In this document: positions 9,927-19,024 of the stretch, piece after piece
Layout of the letters: every line of letters starts with the position of its first letter
Numbering within the stretch: position 1 is the first letter of the stretch
Source: a virus
DNA: 23,720 bases
Direction: 5' to 3' (one strand)
Virus record (IMG/VR): IMGVR_UViG_3300042505_002447
Coordinates: 1 to 23,720 of that record
The notes under the pieces: generated by a model
Told to the model about the DNA's origin: nothing
Database searches by the model: none
The model's input: the letters and a program-made list of their open reading frames with translations, nothing else
Position numbers and translations under genes: made by a program

Positions 9927-10327
9927 TGCGGTTGCGCGGATACCTCATGGGCGATGAGGCGCGGGTCAACGCCCGGGCGGATTTCGTGGCGGACTATCGC
10001 GCGGCGGGCGGCGTGTTGCCGGACGGGCCGAAAGTCAGCCTGCTGGACGACACCGGGGCGGTGCTGGGGGTGGCGGGCTTTAGCCGGATCGCGCCGCGCC
10101 AGTGGGGAGCCTGGGCCTATCTGGCGGAGATGGCGCCGCGCCAGTGGGTGCGCGCGGCCCGGCGGGCGCGGCTGGCGATCATCGGCGCGACGGGCCTGCT
10201 GGACGGAGGCTGCAGCATCTATGCGACCCCGGCGGACACCGATGCGGCGCAACGCCTGCTGGCCAGCATAGGGTTCCGACCCAGTGTGGACGACGCAGGT
10301 ATCTGGAAATTTGAGGGAGCGGCCTGA
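9926..10327 (+). CDS. GNAT-fold internal virion protein (T7 gp13 position)
   Basis: This encodes 133 residues, with TGATG overlaps on both sides. The sequence suggests a small acetyltransferase-like fold: VSLLDDTGAVLGVAGFSRIAPRQWGAWAYL (strands 2-4), RQWVRAARRARLAIIGATGLL (helix), CSIYATPADTDAAQRLLASIGFRP, the usual late helix and 'GF' strand of GNAT proteins. The canonical acetyl-CoA loop (R/Q-x-x-G-x-G/A) is not evident. T7 gp13 and relatives (DUF2833) occupy the same position between nozzle and gp14 and share this fold, so a virion assembly role is likely. Assignment rests on position and pattern. Confidence 0.72.
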   Translation: MRLRGYLMGDEARVNARADFVADYRAAGGVLPDGPKVSLLDDTGAVLGVAGFSRIAPRQWGAWAYLAEMAPRQWVRAARRARLAIIGATGLLDGGCSIYATPADTDAAQRLLASIGFRPSVDDAGIWKFEGAA

Positions 10328-10791
10328 TGGTGGCGCCACTTGCTGCGGCGGCGATCGCCAGCGCGGGCCTGTCGGCCGTGGGAAAGATCCTGGGCGGGAT
10401 CGGATCGAAGTCGGCCGCCAAGGCGCGCGCGGGGGCGCTGGAAACCAACGCCGGGATGGACCTGGCGGAAAGCGGCCTGGCCGCGCAGATGGGGCTGGAG
10501 CAGGACGAGCGGGTGGCCGCCAGTCTGGCGACGCAGGCGGCGGCCGGCGGCGGGGGCGGCCTGCGGGGATCGGCCCTGCGGGTGCTGAACGATCTGGGGC
10601 GGCAGAGCCTGCAGAAGGCCAGAAACACCGTCTATGGCGGCCAGACGGCGGCCTGGTCGCGGCGCAATGACGCGCAGGTGGCCCGCACCGAGGGACGCAA
10701 CGCCCTGACCGGGGCGGTGATCGGGGCGGGCGCCTCGCTGATCGGCGGGGCGGCCAAGGCCTATGACATCAAGAACGGCGGCAGGGGATAA
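10327..10791 (+). CDS. Internal virion / DNA ejection protein (T7 gp14-like)
   Basis: This encodes 154 residues. Hydrophobic Ala/Gly-rich segments at both ends (about 4-24, LAAAAIASAGLSAVGKILGGI, and 122-142, LTGAVIGAGASLIGGAAKAY) flank an amphipathic helical centre with Gln/Asp/Glu and a Gly run (GGGGGLRGSALRVLNDL). This is the plan of gp14 of T7 and gp7-type ejection proteins, which leave the virion and insert in the outer membrane as part of the DNA channel. Start overlaps the previous stop (TGATG) and its stop overlaps the next start (TAATG), so it is coupled within the ejection block. Confidence 0.8.
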   Translation: MVAPLAAAAIASAGLSAVGKILGGIGSKSAAKARAGALETNAGMDLAESGLAAQMGLEQDERVAASLATQAAAGGGGGLRGSALRVLNDLGRQSLQKARNTVYGGQTAAWSRRNDAQVARTEGRNALTGAVIGAGASLIGGAAKAYDIKNGGRG

Positions 10792-13670
10792 TGGCCAGAC
10801 TTCCGGACAGCCTTGATGTGGGCGCGCCGCGCGGGGCGCGGCTGAGCGGCGACACCGTGCGCCCGACCGACTTTGGCCTGGGCGATGTGGCGGGCGCGGT
10901 GGAACAGGTGGGCCAGGCGCTGGCCAACCGCGATGATCGGGATGCGGAGAAGGTGATCGCCGTACCGCAACGGGAGTTCGAGTTGAGGATGGCGGAAGAG
11001 GCCGCAGCCTATGACGGCGCCGAACCCGGGTGGGCGACCAAGGCGCTCGCCAGCTTCGACAACCATTTCACGGCAGTCAGCGAGGACACCACCTACTCGC
11101 AAGGGCTGCGTTTCGCGCTGCGCCGGAAGCTGGACGCCTACAAGGCCGACTTTGGCCGGCGGGCGCTGGGGGTAGAGGCCGGCAAGCGCGCCGGGATCGT
11201 GGCCGATCAGGAACGCGGCAAAACGCAGGGCAAGCTCTCGGAAGGTGAGATCGCCTTTGACGGCGATTTTCAGCCCCGACGGCAGGCGCGATACGATAGC
11301 TTCAACGGGGATGACCCGGAGTTCATGGCCGGAATAACGGCAGACTATGACGCAGCAGCCAAGGCGCAGTTGGATGCTGCGGAGCCCGCTGTGCGCCCCG
11401 CCCTGGAGGCCCGACTGAACGCCCGGAAAGTATCGGCGCTGGCCGAGGCAATGCAGTTTCAACAGACCACGCAGGCCAAGGTGGTTCAGGCCGCCACGGA
11501 TCGGGGTGTCCAGGCGTTGGCCAACATGGTGTCAACGAACCCGACCAGCTACGCCGACGCGACAGGAACCCTTCAGGGGTTGGCCAGCCGTTTGCCGAGA
11601 GCCCTGCAGGGCCCCTTCGTACAGGAAGCCAAGGGAACGCTGGCGACTTACCGGGTGCTGGGATTGATCCAGCGGGGTGATTACCAGCAGGCCCAGCAGG
11701 AGCTGGCCGATGGTCGCTATGACGCAGTGCTGGACCCCGGCAAGAAGTCGGCGCTGATGGCGCGGGCCGATGCGGCCGAGCGGGGCGGCCCCAAGAGCCT
11801 TGAGGACTGGCGACGGGTGCATGAGGCCGAGGATGCGCTGGAAAGCGAAGTCCAGGCCCGGGCGCGGGGCGCCACGACAGGGATATCCCTGCAGGAAATT
11901 GCGGCAAGGCTGTCACCGCGTGAGCAGGCGTCGTGGGAGCAGCGGGCCAAACAGGCCGATGAGGTATTTGCGGCGACGGGCAATCTGCGCAGCCAGTCGA
12001 CGGCGGATCTGCGCGCGCGGGCCAGTGCGCCGCCGCCGGACCCGACCGCGCCGGACTATGGCCGGAAGCAACAGGCCTGGGAGCTGGGCCGCAAGGCCGC
12101 CGCCGGGGAGCTGGCGGCGCGGGAGAAGGACCCGGCAGGCTGGGCGATGACGTCGGAAAAGCCCGGCGATGCGGGCGCCACGATCCAGACGGCGCTGAAG
12201 GGGTATCTGGAAGCCGATACGCCGGAAGCCCTGACGAAGGCGGCCGGGGTCTATGCGCGGTTCACCCTGGGGATGCAGCAACAGGCCGGGATCGCGCCGG
12301 CCGCGCAACGGGTGCTGCCCAAGGATCAGGCGGCGGACATGGTGAGCGCCTATGCGCGGGCGCCGGCGGCGGAGCGTCCGAAGGCGCTGGCCTCGCTGGC
12401 GGCGGTGTGGGCGGCCCTGCCGTCGCGGACAACCATGCAGGACGGCCGGGTGGTGTCGCCCCGGGCGATGGCGGCGCGGGAGCTGCGCGCGGCCGGACTG
12501 GGCGGGGCGGACATTTCGGCGCTGGTCGACCTGTCGGACAATCCCGGCAAGCTGGCGCTCTATGCCGAGGCGACGGGCAATCCGGCGGCCCTGACCAAGC
12601 TGACCGCCAAGGGGCAGGAGGCGACGCTGGATGGGCAGGTGGCGGCGCGGCTGGCGCCGTACTTTGCCACGGCCAATGCCGCGCCGGGGGCGGGCGAGCA
12701 GAACGCCGGACGGGTGGCGCGCGCCCAGATCATGGCCCGGCAACTGGTGCTGGTGAAGGGTCTGACCCTGGCGGAGGCGGCGAAGGAAGCCACGGCGGAT
12801 CTTGTGGATGAGTATCGCTTTGTCGATACCTGGCGGATGCCGGTGGCGCGGACGTCGGCCAATCCGCCCAGTGTGGTGCGTCGCGGCGCGGCCATTGCGC
12901 TGGCGGACCTGATCGGCCGGGACGGGCAACTGCTGGCGACGGCGCCGGGCGTTGGCATGACCGACCCTGACCGGCGGCGCAAGTCGGCCGATATTGTCGA
13001 GAACAAGGGCCGCTGGGTGACGAGCGAGGACGACAGCGGCCTGACGCTGATGATCCCGACGCAGCGCGGCTGGACGCCCGCCCCGGACCTGCATGGCCGG
13101 GCGGTGCGGCTGAGCTGGGACCAGCTCGAACAGATCGGCCGGCGGGGACCGTCGGGCAAGGCGGGCGACTGGATGGCTCCGGCGCCGGCGGCGACAGCGC
13201 CGCGCACCGTGGCCCTGCCCAGGGCGCGGGCGGCGTTTACGGCGGCGATCGAGCATCAGGAGAGCCGGGGCAATCCGCAGGCGGTGAGCCCTGCCGGCGC
13301 GCTGGGTCTGCGCCAGCTCATGATCGGAACCGCCAAGTGGCAGGCCCGCATGGATGGCAACAAGGTGTTCGACGGCCGCAGCGATGCGGAGATCCGAACC
13401 CTGCTGCTGAGCAACCCGGCGCTGAACCGGCGGCTGAGCGACAATCACATTGAGTATCTGTCGAAACGCTACGATGGCAACGTGGGTCTGATGGCGGCGG
13501 CCTACAACGCCGGGCCGGGCGCGGTGGACGGATGGCTGAAAACCTATGGCGATCCGCGCCGGGGCCGGGTGAGCCTGGACGAGTGGGTGGCCGACATCCC
13601 GTTCAAGGAAACCCGGAACTATGTGCTGGAAGTGCTGCCGAGGGCGCTGAAAAACCTGCAGCGTAGCTGA
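10791..13670 (+). CDS. Large ejection protein with C-terminal lytic transglycosylase
   Basis: This encodes 959 residues. Residues 1-780 are long, Ala/Arg/Glu-rich helical sequence like T7 gp15-type inner core proteins. Residues about 812-955 are a soluble lytic transglycosylase domain: HQESRGNPQAVSPAGALGLRQLM with probable catalytic E824, AAYNAGPGAV (903-912) and KETRNYV (E940, Y944). It would cut peptidoglycan so that the ejection channel can cross the cell wall. In T7 this activity sits at the start of gp16; here it is at the end of the gp15-position protein. The motif 'GLRQLM' replaces the usual GLMQLMP. Starts in a TAATG overlap; no other start is needed. Confidence 0.87.
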   Translation: MARLPDSLDVGAPRGARLSGDTVRPTDFGLGDVAGAVEQVGQALANRDDRDAEKVIAVPQREFELRMAEEAAAYDGAEPGWATKALASFDNHFTAVSEDTTYSQGLRFALRRKLDAYKADFGRRALGVEAGKRAGIVADQERGKTQGKLSEGEIAFDGDFQPRRQARYDSFNGDDPEFMAGITADYDAAAKAQLDAAEPAVRPALEARLNARKVSALAEAMQFQQTTQAKVVQAATDRGVQALANMVSTNPTSYADATGTLQGLASRLPRALQGPFVQEAKGTLATYRVLGLIQRGDYQQAQQELADGRYDAVLDPGKKSALMARADAAERGGPKSLEDWRRVHEAEDALESEVQARARGATTGISLQEIAARLSPREQASWEQRAKQADEVFAATGNLRSQSTADLRARASAPPPDPTAPDYGRKQQAWELGRKAAAGELAAREKDPAGWAMTSEKPGDAGATIQTALKGYLEADTPEALTKAAGVYARFTLGMQQQAGIAPAAQRVLPKDQAADMVSAYARAPAAERPKALASLAAVWAALPSRTTMQDGRVVSPRAMAARELRAAGLGGADISALVDLSDNPGKLALYAEATGNPAALTKLTAKGQEATLDGQVAARLAPYFATANAAPGAGEQNAGRVARAQIMARQLVLVKGLTLAEAAKEATADLVDEYRFVDTWRMPVARTSANPPSVVRRGAAIALADLIGRDGQLLATAPGVGMTDPDRRRKSADIVENKGRWVTSEDDSGLTLMIPTQRGWTPAPDLHGRAVRLSWDQLEQIGRRGPSGKAGDWMAPAPAATAPRTVALPRARAAFTAAIEHQESRGNPQAVSPAGALGLRQLMIGTAKWQARMDGNKVFDGRSDAEIRTLLLSNPALNRRLSDNHIEYLSKRYDGNVGLMAAAYNAGPGAVDGWLKTYGDPRRGRVSLDEWVADIPFKETRNYVLEVLPRALKNLQRS

Positions 13671-13707: not shown

Positions 13708-16050
13708 ATGCCAAGCCTGCTGATTGATCCAGAAGTCGATGAGGCGGATGCCGCCGAAGCCCTGAGCGGGTCTTCGTCGGGCCTGCTGACGTTTGAAAGC
13801 CAGATGGGCCAGTTGACGGCGGCGGCCGGCGATGTGGCGCGCGGCTTCGGGCGCGGGCGCGGCGAGCTGCTGGATCCGGAGACGGCCAACCGGGACTATG
13901 GCGTCGAGGGGCAATTGACCTTCGAGCGCCCGACCTATGAGAACGATGCGGCGCGCAAGCAACATTCGGCGCAGCGCCGGGCGTTCCGCGACGATGTGAT
14001 GAGCCGGTCCGAACTGGGGCCGCTGGGCAAGATGGGCGCGGCCCTGACCGGGGCGCTGTTTGATCCGGTGGGCCTGCCGCTGATGTTCGCCCCCGAACTG
14101 CTGGGCCTGCGCGGGACGCTGGAAGGCGGGGCGGTGTTCCGGGCGGGCAGCGTGCTGGGCAAGGCCGGGCGGGTGGCCAATGTCGGGCGCGGGGCGGTGA
14201 TCGGCGGGATCGAGGGCGCGGCGGGCGGCGTGGTCTATGAGGCGGGGGCGTTCGCCCTGAGCAATGCCGATGATCCGGACTACACGGCGGGCGATGCGCT
14301 GAACAACGTGCTGCTGGGCACGGTGCTGGGCGGCGGGATCGGCGGGGTGCTGGGCGGCGTGTTCGGCGGGCGGGGCCAGCCGGCGGCGCTGGCGCGGATG
14401 GACGAGGACGCCCGGCTGGGGGCGGTGATGAGCGCGCTGGACGATGTGTCCGCCGACCGGCCGGTGAACGTGGCCGCGATCATCGAGAAGGAAGCGCCGC
14501 CGAAGGCCGCGCCCACGCCCGAACGGCTGGCGGCGCTGGACGAGGGCGGCGGCGGGCCACGGATCACGGCGCGCGAGCTGGAGGCTGATGTGGCGGTGAC
14601 GTCGCGCGGCCGCGAGATCCCGGTGAAGTACGCCCTGGTGGAACTGGACGATCTGGTCACCAGCCACACCGATGACCTGGAGCGCAATGCGGCGTTCCCG
14701 GAAGCCCTGCAACCCCGCGACCGGACGCGGGCGGGGAGCCAGGCAGGCAACTTCCGGCTGGAAGCGGAGCTGAACCCGAAACGGCTGATGCGCGAGGCCG
14801 GGGCGGAAACCGGCGCGCCGTTGGTGGCGCCCGACGGCACGGTGGAAAGCGGGAACGGCCGGACGATTGCGCTGCGCCGGTCGGCGCGGACGGGCTCGGA
14901 GGCCTATGGCCGCTATCGTCAGGAACTGGCGGCGCAGGGGTTTGATACGACCGGCATGACCAACCCGGTGCTGGTGCGGATCCGCACAGGCCGGATGGAC
15001 GGGGAGGCGCGGGCGGCGCTGGCCCGGGAAATGAACGCCGCGCCCACGGAAACCATGGGACCGTCCGAACAGGCGATGGCCGATGCGGCGGCGCTGGACG
15101 ATGCGGTGCTGAGCCGGATCGACGGCACGGCGGCGGGCGAGCGCGCCTTCATGCAGGCCTTCGTGGCCAAGGTGGCGCCGGACCAGCAGAACGCCTTTGC
15201 AGCGGCGGACGGCGCCCTGAGCCAGCAGGGTCGCCAGCGGGCGGCGGCGGCGCTGGTGGCGCGGGCCTATGGCGATCCGCGCCTGGTGGAAGCCGTGTTC
15301 GAGACGGCGGACCCGAACATTCGCACCCTGGGGGCGGCGCTGAGCGAGGCGGCGCCCGGCTGGGCGAAGATGCGATCGCTGGCGGCGCGGGGCGAGATCC
15401 CGGCGGATCTGGACGTGACCGCGCAGCTCCGCGCGGCGGTGGACATGATCCGCCACGCGCGGGACCATAGAATTCCTGTGGATGAATGGATCGCCCAGCG
15501 GCTGGACCAGCAGGAGCTGTTCGGCGGGAATTCGGTGGATGTGGAAACCGAAGCCTTCCTGCGGCTGTTTTTCCGGGATGACACTTTCCGTCGGCACCGT
15601 TCTGCGGATAAGATCGCCTGGGCGCTGAAGGACTATGCGCGACAGGCGGGCGACGTGGCCCCCGGCCCGAACCTGTTTGGAGATACGCCCGATGGCGAAG
15701 CCCGCCTCATTCTCGATGGCCTCAACCGGAAATTCGCCGGAGACGAGCGGTTCCCCGCCGAAGCCGACCTCCTCGACCTCGCGCCAAAGCCCACGGAACC
15801 TGCTCGCATCGACCTTCGCCCGGATGCCGGCGACGGAGGCGGAGGCGGCGTACAACGCGGACCTGGCGAAGGCCCTGCGGGAGGGGTAGCGGAGGGCGGA
15901 CGTCCCGACCCTACGACCCTGATTGATCCGGAACTGAAGGCCCTGGCGGACGAGGTGCTGGCCGATGCACCGTCGCTGGCCCCGCGCGATGATCCGGCGG
16001 TGATCGCCGAGGCGATCCGGGCGGCGGCGTTTTGTTTGAGGGAGGGGTAG
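13708..16050 (+). CDS. Polyvalent ejection protein with DdrB/ParB-like domain
   Basis: This encodes 780 residues. Residues 1-100 are acidic/basic linker; 105-225 contain glycine-zipper hydrophobic stretches (ALTGALFDPVGLPLMFAPELLGL; LLGTVLGGGIGGVLGGVFGG at 202-221) suited to membrane contact. Residues about 280-560 match the DdrB-like ParB superfamily domain of phage 'polyvalent' proteins: ELDDLVTSH, ALQPRDRTRAG (333-343), LVAPDGTVESGNGRTIAL (372-389), then helical EWIAQRLDQQELFGG and FLRLFF near 590-625. Such proteins are thought to be injected with the DNA and act early in the cell, perhaps as ParB-like nucleases or CTP-binding DNA proteins. The C-terminus after about 690 is Gly-rich and may be a mosaic patch. 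GTGAG lies a few bases before the ATG. Confidence 0.82.
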   Translation: MPSLLIDPEVDEADAAEALSGSSSGLLTFESQMGQLTAAAGDVARGFGRGRGELLDPETANRDYGVEGQLTFERPTYENDAARKQHSAQRRAFRDDVMSRSELGPLGKMGAALTGALFDPVGLPLMFAPELLGLRGTLEGGAVFRAGSVLGKAGRVANVGRGAVIGGIEGAAGGVVYEAGAFALSNADDPDYTAGDALNNVLLGTVLGGGIGGVLGGVFGGRGQPAALARMDEDARLGAVMSALDDVSADRPVNVAAIIEKEAPPKAAPTPERLAALDEGGGGPRITARELEADVAVTSRGREIPVKYALVELDDLVTSHTDDLERNAAFPEALQPRDRTRAGSQAGNFRLEAELNPKRLMREAGAETGAPLVAPDGTVESGNGRTIALRRSARTGSEAYGRYRQELAAQGFDTTGMTNPVLVRIRTGRMDGEARAALAREMNAAPTETMGPSEQAMADAAALDDAVLSRIDGTAAGERAFMQAFVAKVAPDQQNAFAAADGALSQQGRQRAAAALVARAYGDPRLVEAVFETADPNIRTLGAALSEAAPGWAKMRSLAARGEIPADLDVTAQLRAAVDMIRHARDHRIPVDEWIAQRLDQQELFGGNSVDVETEAFLRLFFRDDTFRRHRSADKIAWALKDYARQAGDVAPGPNLFGDTPDGEARLILDGLNRKFAGDERFPAEADLLDLAPKPTEPARIDLRPDAGDGGGGGVQRGPGEGPAGGVAEGGRPDPTTLIDPELKALADEVLADAPSLAPRDDPAVIAEAIRAAAFCLREG

Positions 16051-16052
16051 GC

Positions 16053-16352
16053 ATGGCCAAGCGTCCCTTCTGCGACGATTGGGGTTGTCCCTCCATGTGG
16101 ACCTGTGCCCGCGCTTGGGGCCGAGCCGAAGCCTACTGGCGCTTCGACCCCGACCAAGACGCCCGCGAACGCATCTCCCTCTATGCAGGCCTGCGGAAGC
16201 CCGGCCACGAGGCCTGTGCCGATTGGGAACGGGACAAGCCGCGCCCTTGGCTGGCGGGGGCCTTTGAGCCGATGAACGGGGTCGGCATGACGCGCCCGGT
16301 GATCCCGCCTAACTTCAAGTTGGCGGCGGTCGAATGCGAAGGTGAAGCATGA
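16053..16352 (+). CDS. Second four-cysteine small phage protein
   Basis: This encodes 99 residues with GGAGG just before the ATG (16041-16046) in the tail of the previous gene; an in-frame TTG at 16032 is less likely. Cysteines C7, C12, C18 and C55 (CDDWGCPSMWTCARAW ... HEACADW) may bind a metal. Small proteins of this type (C-D-x-x-C-P ... C-x-R ... C-x-x-W) occur beside ejection genes in other podoviruses; their job is unknown. Its spacing differs from the four-cysteine protein at 3326, so the two are not obvious duplicates. The stop overlaps the next start as ATGA. Confidence 0.72.
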   Translation: MAKRPFCDDWGCPSMWTCARAWGRAEAYWRFDPDQDARERISLYAGLRKPGHEACADWERDKPRPWLAGAFEPMNGVGMTRPVIPPNFKLAAVECEGEA

Positions 16353-19024
16353 AAGCCTGCCACGCCCCCATCCGCGCCGCGACGGGCGACGCCTTCTCCG
16401 ACGCCGAGATTGACGACATCCTCGACCGGCTGGCGCGCAAGCACAAACGCGCCAAGGGCAAGGCTCCGACCGCCAGCGATGAACAGGCGTGGGCTGAGGC
16501 CGCCGCCGACCTGACGCGGGAGGAGGTGGAAACCGCCCTGCAGGCGCGCCGGCTGGAGCATTTCGCCAAGGCCGCGCGGGTGGCGCGTGAAGCCCGGATG
16601 GCCGCCATGACGGCGGGCGGGCTGGACGAGGCGCAGGCCCTGAAGGCCTACAATGTGGGATCGGACAAGCAGGCCGGGTTCTCCAGCGCCAGCGTGGACG
16701 CCGAGGGCCGGGCGCGGGCGGTGGCGGCGTGGGGCGACGTCGAGCGCGGTCTGGCGGCGCACGAGGGCCTGAGCGACCGGCTGGTGAACTTCTGGGGCGG
16801 CGGCGACGATGCGTTCGACCGCGACGTGGCGCGCGAGATGGCCCGGCTGAACGGGGCCGACATCGAGGCGACGGGGGATGCCGACGCGCTGGCGGCGGCG
16901 CGGGTGTTTGCCGCCGCGCTGGAGAAAAACCGTCAGGGGCTGAACGCCCAGGGCGCGTTTGTGGGCAAGCTGAAGGGGCGGATCGCGGCGCAGTCGCATG
17001 ACCGCCTGAAGGTGTCGGGCGGGTTCTGGCGGGAGTTTCGCGAGGCGGGGATCGGTGCGCCGGCCAAGTGGGGCGAGGCGCGCCTGCAGGCGTCGCGCAA
17101 GGCGTTCCGGCAATGGCGGGACTATATCCGGCCACGGCTGGACCCGGCGACCTTTGACGGGATCGACGTTTCCGACGGGGCGCTGGCGGACGAGGCCGAG
17201 GCGCTGGCGAAGGCCGGGGTGATCGACGACGCGGCGGATCTGGAGGAGCGGTTCCTGTACCGCGCCTGGTGGAACATCGTCTCGGGCGCCCATGAGGTGC
17301 TGGGGGGCGCGCAGGATCTGGCGGAATTCCGCCCGCCGGCCGGCAAGGCCCGGGCGGTCAGCAAACACCGGGTGCTGCACTTCAAGGACCCCGACGCCTG
17401 GTCGGACTATCACGCCGAATATGGGCGGGGATCGCTCTACAGCGTGGTGATGGGCGAGCTGGAGCGCGGCGGCAAGAACGCCGCCCTGATGGCGCGCTGG
17501 GGCCCGTCGCCGGAAGCCGCCTTCGGGCGGACGATGGAGACGCTGGGATCGGCGGCGCGGGCGCGCGGCGACGCCGGGGCGGCGAACGCCCTGCAGAGCC
17601 GGTTGCGGCAGGCGGAGTTTGACGAGCTGACCGGGGAAACCAACCGGCCCGACAAACTGCGGCTGGCGCTGATCGGGCGCACGATCCGGACCTCGCAGGT
17701 GCTGTCCAAGCTGGGCGGCATGGTGCTGTCGGCGCTGTCGGACACGGCGCTGGCCAGTCAGGCCATGACCCGGGCGGGCGGCAATTTCGCGGGCGGCTAT
17801 GGCGCGGCGCTGAAAGGCATTGCGCGGCTGCAGGACGCGGAGGGCAAGCGCGCGGCGGATCTGCTGGACGTGGGCTCACGCTCGGCGGCGGCGCATCTGA
17901 TGGGCCGCTTCACGGCCACGGACGGGCCGTTGGGCTGGTCGGCCTGGGCGCAGCGGGTGTTCTATCGGGTGAACGGGTTCGAGGCCTGGTCGGACGGCCT
18001 GCGCCGGGGCGTCGGCGAAATGCTGTCCGCGCACTGGGGGCAGGAGGCGGCGTTCGGGTGGGATGGATTGCAGGCGGGCACGCGCGAGACGTTCGAGCGC
18101 TACGGCATTGACCGGGGCCTGTGGGATCTGGCGCGGACCGGGACCACGCCGCTGGAGGACGGGCGGACCTATTTCAGCCTGGAGGCCATCGACGGCCTGT
18201 CGGATGCGGACGTGCATCGCTGGGCAGGGCTGAAGGGCAAACAGGCCACGGCGGCGGCGGCGGCGCGGTTACGTGACGACATCAGGCTCAGGTTCCAGAC
18301 CATGACCGGCGGCATTCTCGACGACGCCCTGACGGAGGCCCGGGCGCGGGAGCGGGTGGCGCTGGTTCAGGGCCTGAAGGCGGGCACGGTGTGGGGGGAG
18401 GCGGTGCGCAGCTTCACCCAGTTCTGGAGTTTTTCGGCGACGATCCTGGGGCGGCATGTGGCGCCGGCGGCGCGGGGGTTCGCGGGCCGCCAGCCGGTCG
18501 CCCTGCTGGCGCATCTGATCGTGGCCACGACCCTGCTGGGGGCGGCGTCGCTACAGGCCAAGCAACTGGTGAAGGGCCGCACGCCGCGCCCGCTGGACCG
18601 GCCCGAGACCTGGCTGGCGGCGCTTCTTCAAGGAGGGGGCCTTGGCGTGTACGGCGACTTTCTGTTTGGGGAATACGCGCGCAGCGGTATGCCGGCAACG
18701 ATCAGCACGTTCGCGGGTCCGTCGGTGAGCGAGCTGGAGCGTCTGCGCTTGGTGGTGGGTGCGGCGGCGGGCACGCTGAACCCGCTGACCACGGATGAAA
18801 AGCGCGACGCCTCGAAGCAGGTGCTGGAGCAACAGGGGTTCCGGTTCATCAAGGACAACACCCCGTTCGCCAACATCTTCTACACCCGGCTGGCGCTGGA
18901 TTATCTGGTGCTGTGGCGGCTGCAGGAGGCGATCTCGCCGGGGTATCTGGCGCGGTATGAGGCCAATGTGCGCGAGCGCGAGGGAAGTGATTTCCTGATC
19001 TCGCCGACGGAGGCGGTGCAGTAG
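16349..19024 (+). CDS. Large internal virion / ejection protein
   Basis: This encodes 891 residues, starting in an ATGA overlap. It is mostly helical: charged N-terminal region (EIDDILDRLARKHKRAKG, 20-40), a middle section FWREFREAGIGAPAKWGEARLQASRKAFRQW, and a hydrophobic segment PVALLAHLIVATTLLGAASLQAKQL at about 716-740. The end, NTPFANIFYTRLALDYLVLWRLQEAISPGYLARYEANVRE then a Phe-Leu-x-x-Pro-Thr-Glu-Ala closing, is the conserved tail of the very large ejection proteins of BPP-1/T7-like podoviruses. It probably lines the inner-membrane part of the ejection channel (gp16-like), but has no transglycosylase domain; that activity sits in the 10791 gene. Confidence 0.85.
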   Translation: MKACHAPIRAATGDAFSDAEIDDILDRLARKHKRAKGKAPTASDEQAWAEAAADLTREEVETALQARRLEHFAKAARVAREARMAAMTAGGLDEAQALKAYNVGSDKQAGFSSASVDAEGRARAVAAWGDVERGLAAHEGLSDRLVNFWGGGDDAFDRDVAREMARLNGADIEATGDADALAAARVFAAALEKNRQGLNAQGAFVGKLKGRIAAQSHDRLKVSGGFWREFREAGIGAPAKWGEARLQASRKAFRQWRDYIRPRLDPATFDGIDVSDGALADEAEALAKAGVIDDAADLEERFLYRAWWNIVSGAHEVLGGAQDLAEFRPPAGKARAVSKHRVLHFKDPDAWSDYHAEYGRGSLYSVVMGELERGGKNAALMARWGPSPEAAFGRTMETLGSAARARGDAGAANALQSRLRQAEFDELTGETNRPDKLRLALIGRTIRTSQVLSKLGGMVLSALSDTALASQAMTRAGGNFAGGYGAALKGIARLQDAEGKRAADLLDVGSRSAAAHLMGRFTATDGPLGWSAWAQRVFYRVNGFEAWSDGLRRGVGEMLSAHWGQEAAFGWDGLQAGTRETFERYGIDRGLWDLARTGTTPLEDGRTYFSLEAIDGLSDADVHRWAGLKGKQATAAAAARLRDDIRLRFQTMTGGILDDALTEARARERVALVQGLKAGTVWGEAVRSFTQFWSFSATILGRHVAPAARGFAGRQPVALLAHLIVATTLLGAASLQAKQLVKGRTPRPLDRPETWLAALLQGGGLGVYGDFLFGEYARSGMPATISTFAGPSVSELERLRLVVGAAAGTLNPLTTDEKRDASKQVLEQQGFRFIKDNTPFANIFYTRLALDYLVLWRLQEAISPGYLARYEANVREREGSDFLISPTEAVQ

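Follow-up and report, generated by a model that had tools for sequence, protein, structure and literature searches.

The DdrB-like ParB domain was named in 2017 by Iyer et al. (PMC5512222), who found it beside virion genes and proposed that it is injected. The family is marked by a conserved active-site arginine and by an added helix that bears a conserved tyrosine, and its ParB unit was described as a network-hub domain among putatively phage-injected proteins (PMC5512222). A lysozyme fusion of the domain is found among late phage genes in Acinetobacter prophages (PMC5512222). In other ParB folds, the arginine of the GxxR motif is required for NTP binding and its loss abolishes binding (PMC12704722). 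A 2025 survey of the ParB-CTPase fold used PF02195 as its query, and the DdrB group is absent from its main text.

DdrB of the contractile-tailed phage P1 is encoded in the Dar operon and carries a C-terminal metallopeptidase. It was detected in virions with 39 unique peptides and is listed as aiding the incorporation of DarB into the capsid (PMC9024508), which is its best documented role, rather than a direct action on DNA. The Dar set, including DdrB, is co-ejected with the DNA and protects it from type I restriction (PMC12810830). The second system of interest is the ejection cassette of Salmonella phage epsilon15, in which gp16 is flanked by gp15 and a member of the gp17 family. Ejection proteins of such a cassette are expected to exit the head together with the DNA or before it (review PMC8954989).

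The ParB unit and its conserved residues

The stretch analysed here (the window) is a viral record of 23.7 kb. One of its open reading frames encodes a protein of exactly 780 residues, the length given in an earlier note on this DNA (Table 1). The domain, its family and the idea of injection have been in print since 2017 (PMC5512222), and the protein is a further example. What is added is modest: the SLT and ParB modules are split between the gp15- and gp16-position proteins, and the ParB domain with its helical extension forms a constant unit.

Table 1. Features of the gp16-position gene and its neighbours in the window
Feature	Position	Strand	Basis or remark
gp14-like internal virion protein (phrog_418)	10327..10791	+	E 7.3e-13
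gp15-position protein, 959 aa, C-terminal SLT transglycosylase (residues 816-921)	10791..13670	+	PF01464, E 5.4e-18
Putative gp16-position ejection protein with DdrB-like ParB domain	13708..16050	+	780 aa; synteny with gp16-like proteins of Piluca and TPWB-05
Glycine-rich hydrophobic segment, residues 104-226, glycine zippers	14017..14385	+	GxxxGxxxG enrichment, hydropathy; conserved in relatives
PF18763 ddrB-ParB domain, residues 300-426	14605..14985	+	E 2.2e-28; AlphaFold2 pLDDT 93.6
Box-I-like motif QPRDR, residues 335-339	14710..14724	+	Q, P, R337 and R339 invariant
Box-II P-motif ESGNGR, residues 380-385 (GxxR)	14845..14862	+	G382, N383 and R385 invariant
Invariant Tyr403 on extra helix typical of DdrB-like ParB	14914..14916	+	Alignment; helix in model; PMC5512222
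Conserved all-helical extension, residues 427-665	14986..15702	+	Common to P1 DdrB and solo DdrB of phage D6
Candidate Box III region	15034..15069	+	Invariant N443 and E454
Low-confidence C-terminal tail	15703..16047	+	Nearly invariant Cys776
99-aa ORF in gp16-gp17 gap	16053..16352	+	Variable insertion site
gp17-family virion protein (phrog_684)	16349..19024	+	E 2.1e-138; same family as epsilon15 gp17

The earlier note had recognised a ParB-superfamily domain by two motifs. Both are present, LQPRDR at residues 334-339 and ESGNGRT at residues 380-386, and the assignment is borne out by PF18763, the single Pfam domain found in the protein, with a score of 99.3 bits against a cut-off of 27.6, far beyond chance. 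The interval that the note gave, 14500-15650 (about residues 265-648), holds the ParB domain and the helical extension, whereas the glycine zippers named with it lie upstream, outside the interval. Searches with the 780-residue protein gave no match in PADLOC (defence systems) or NCBIfam, and no significant match among PDB sequences.

The conserved region is longer than the Pfam domain. The family phrog_5143 (PHROG 5143) covers residues 295-664 (E 1.1e-64), and in tblastn a block of about 355 residues is 29% identical to P1 DdrB (residues 296-649) and 34.5% identical to the 454-residue DdrB of phage D6. The same block has matches in phages of Acinetobacter, Alcaligenes, Pseudoalteromonas, Shewanella and Cronobacter. 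Because this whole block is conserved in PHROGs and tblastn, the functional unit is probably the ParB domain together with its helical extension of about 240 residues, and not the 121-residue Pfam domain alone. P1 DdrB shares this domain and extension as well as the invariant motifs; in the window protein, in contrast, the unit follows a glycine-rich, membrane-like segment in a fusion that is encoded in an epsilon15-like ejection cassette. A helix-turn-helix (HTH) in the extension was considered and not accepted, as HTH_25 scored marginally in just two of 102 family members.

An alignment of 102 relatives, diverse in sequence with a median pairwise identity of 36%, revealed invariant residues at Q335, P336, R337, R339, G369, G382, N383, R385, Y403, P420, N443 and E454. 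The conservation of QPRDR and VESGNGR is partly selected, because both served as search patterns, while G369, Y403, P420, N443 and E454 played no part in finding the sequences. R385 and Y403, the active-site arginine and the tyrosine on the extra helix that are hallmarks of the DdrB-like ParB family, are kept in 102/102 relatives. Loss of active-site residues had been named in the earlier note as a result that would count against its reading; the active-site-like positions (QPRxR, GNxR, Y403, N443 and E454) are without exception retained. Relative to a 98%-identical sister locus (L002), the ParB domain has a dN/dS of 0.037 and the helical extension one of 0.067, and the C-terminal tail reaches 0.26; the low values in the first two regions indicate a constrained coding gene, with strong constraint on the ParB part.

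An AlphaFold2 model of residues 285-668 has a mean pLDDT of 93.6, and its strands and helices, among them the extra helix at residues 398-409 with Tyr403, follow the order published for DdrB-like ParB domains (PMC5512222). In a Foldseek search against BFVD, family members came first and many weak matches at ranks 18-46 were named ParB or ParB/sulfiredoxin (Srx); against PDB there was no significant match. Against a profile built from canonical ParB proteins, QPR and GNGR aligned weakly to the QPR and GERR of ParB (probability 5.5%, single-comparison E 0.002). The ParB-fold assignment is thus based on the published family definition, with weak independent support.

The likeness to canonical ParB (PF02195) consists of a similar succession of the QPR and GxxR motifs and of viral ParB/Srx models among the weaker fold neighbours. 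The window protein differs from canonical ParB in having no PF02195 match and no recognised HTH or dimerisation domain. The earlier note had listed segregation among the possible roles and proposed a search for parS-like sites. This search returned 0 matches to the canonical parS at up to three mismatches in the 23.7-kb window, which is a fragment; palindromes are at chance level, and the scanned ORFs showed no ParA-like gene, so a segregation role finds no support here. The same results make it very improbable that the gene encodes a non-virion protein, either a late product acting in the producing cell or a partition-like ParB of a plasmid prophage, and its position within the ejection cassette in many phages argues further against this.

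The conserved pocket also bears on a DNase reading, one of the options in Iyer et al. 2017, by which the injected ParB domain would nick or degrade host or rival DNA early in infection. Nuclease activity was reported for other ParB/Srx members, namely Osa, a ParB-methylase and GmrS (PMC5512222), and the conserved arginine is present in the window protein. Iyer et al. nevertheless judged NTP sensing to be likelier, because no other DNase replaces the domain (PMC5512222), and later work on the ParB fold centres on NTP binding (PMC12704722). A DNase would, in addition, sit packed against the phage's own genome. We therefore regard a nuclease function as improbable.

The ejection cassette and the N-terminal segment

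The setting is that of late phage genes beside virion proteins, as for the DdrB-like ParB family (Pfam and PHROG neighbours). The window encodes a portal (PF12236), a major capsid protein (PF19821) and tail proteins, and the ParB gene stands in an epsilon15-like cassette, in which the phrog_418 protein and the SLT-bearing gp15-position gene precede it and the phrog_684 gp17 gene follows. Epsilon15 gp17 scores 1015 bits against phrog_684. The gene order is identical in Alcaligenes phage Piluca and in Acinetobacter phages TPWB-05 and MD-2021a, whose gp16-position proteins carry the same ParB unit at 33-34% identity. A gp17-like gene was detected at the same locus in 78/109 relatives shorter than 1300 residues, normally directly downstream and on the same strand, and a further 63 relatives are giant proteins of polyvalent type; these counts describe the sample alone, because the loci were picked by sequence pattern. 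Of 289 alphaproteobacterial genomes searched with an HMM, three carry the family, two of which had been chosen for it beforehand (otherwise one in about 287), and the domain is thus rare in bacterial genomes of this sample. For close relatives, we found no published virion proteomics.

The glycine zippers, which the earlier note had described as joined to the ParB domain in one chain, are real. The overlapping GxxxGxxxG patterns in residues 104-226 number seven, against 1.9 expected from shuffling of the segment (P~0.005), and the strongest hydrophobic stretch (residues 201-219) has a mean Kyte-Doolittle hydropathy of 1.86. The segment is common to close, Caulobacterales-type relatives and divergent Rhizobium-type relatives (hhalign probability 97%, E 3e-11). 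The full-length AlphaFold2 model (mean pLDDT 66.9, pTM 0.40) was left unused for the domain arrangement, because the glycine-rich region and the tail are unreliable.

Epsilon15 gp16 occupies the same slot, flanked by gp15 and a gp17 family member, but it is without the ParB domain and has no detectable homology to the window protein. The latter has no match to phrog_1145, the family of epsilon15 gp16, and no homology of its N-terminus to gp16 was found: BLASTP gave an E of 0.029, and profile comparison of the N-terminal parts a weak match of 31-47 columns. Because the N-terminal part has no detectable homology to epsilon15 gp16, the gp16 assignment is positional.

This comparison weighs on two further explanations. 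The ParB and helical unit might be a packaging or assembly adaptor that docks the protein, or cargo proteins, in the capsid during assembly and plays no enzymatic part once a new host is entered. The listing of P1 DdrB as an aid to DarB addition (PMC9024508) agrees with this, as does the recurrence of the unit, like a loading tag, in many otherwise different and probably virion-associated giant proteins. However, epsilon15 gp16 is without the domain and the unit is therefore not generally needed for packaging of gp16, and a strictly conserved nucleotide-pocket motif exceeds the needs of a docking tag, which leaves an adaptor rather unlikely. The unit might also act as a gate or motor of the ejectosome, an NTP-binding element at the cytoplasmic mouth of the channel that binds the DNA on arrival and regulates or ratchets its passage into the cell. 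The position matches the ejection protein class that was proposed as the cytoplasmic hub in T7 (review PMC8954989), and a membrane-like segment and a DNA/NTP-type fold are combined in one chain. Yet the cassette of epsilon15 does without the ParB domain, and the contractile-tailed P1 carries it in a non-channel protein; we consider a gate or motor doubtful.

Proposed role in the infected cell

The precedent of P1, with DdrB in the virion and an ejected Dar set, together with the GxxR arginine, favours an ejected NTP-binding anti-defence module. According to this model, which we hold with about even confidence, the protein would be an internal virion protein of an epsilon15-like podophage, packaged with its gp15- and gp17-like partners, and would exit the head together with the DNA or in advance of it. 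The N-terminal part, hydrophobic and rich in glycine, may then join or line a trans-envelope channel, and the C-terminal ParB-fold unit, comprising the ParB domain and the helical extension, would be delivered to the cytoplasm. In this compartment the unit is predicted to bind a nucleotide via the QPR/GNGR pocket and, ahead of all phage gene expression, to act on the incoming DNA or on a host defence. By analogy with the Dar set of P1, the most likely role would be anti-restriction or anti-defence. The proposal of the earlier note that the phage, if the protein is ejected with the genome, delivers a DNA-acting protein is partly supported by context, namely the ejection cassette and the P1 DdrB prototype.

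A more specific version, which is speculative and has a low probability, would make the ParB unit a DNA clamp, switched by a nucleotide and loaded onto the entering genome, that coats the leading DNA and shields it from restriction. If true, the phage would possess a protein-delivered, transcription-independent genome shield that is fused to its ejection channel.

Shuffling of the lytic domain and variation at related loci

The SLT domain is located at the C-terminus of the gp15-position protein in the window (13236-13553) and in two related loci (L019 and L033). In two others (L017 and L025) the gp16-position protein contains it, placed between the glycine-rich segment and the ParB domain, and it is also found inside this protein in Acinetobacter and Alcaligenes phages. 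No SLT was detected by Pfam in the proteins scanned from L016 and L023. The proteins of Piluca, TPWB-05 and MD-2021a combine an N-terminus like that of epsilon15 gp16 with SLT in one chain, whereas the window has SLT at the C-terminus of gp15 and a gp16-position protein whose N-terminus is unrelated by sequence. The ParB unit keeps its place while SLT alternates between gp15 and the gp16-position protein, which suggests separate tasks for the two modules. The alternating location fits with both proteins crossing the envelope together. With 780 residues and its ParB unit apart from the lytic domain, the window protein is a simpler test system than the usual giant proteins.

In Rhizobium-type loci such as L046 (2778-6053), the upstream gene combines SLT with a VanY-type D-alanyl-D-alanine carboxypeptidase domain. 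The gp16-position protein of L063 (6035-10603) is enlarged to 1522 residues and keeps the ParB unit; about 700 added residues match phrog_9880 and phrog_13543, PHROGs of the giant polyvalent type. The gap between gp16 and gp17, which in the window holds an unassigned ORF of 99 residues, is occupied in the 98%-identical sister L002 by a gene for a Mom-like DNA-modification protein (10328-10807; phrog_1384, E 3e-28), and by HNH endonucleases in L019 (9638-10132) and L024 (9836-10336). Within the C-terminal tail, Cys776 (16033-16035) is nearly invariant in 27 relatives, despite the variable sequence that surrounds it.
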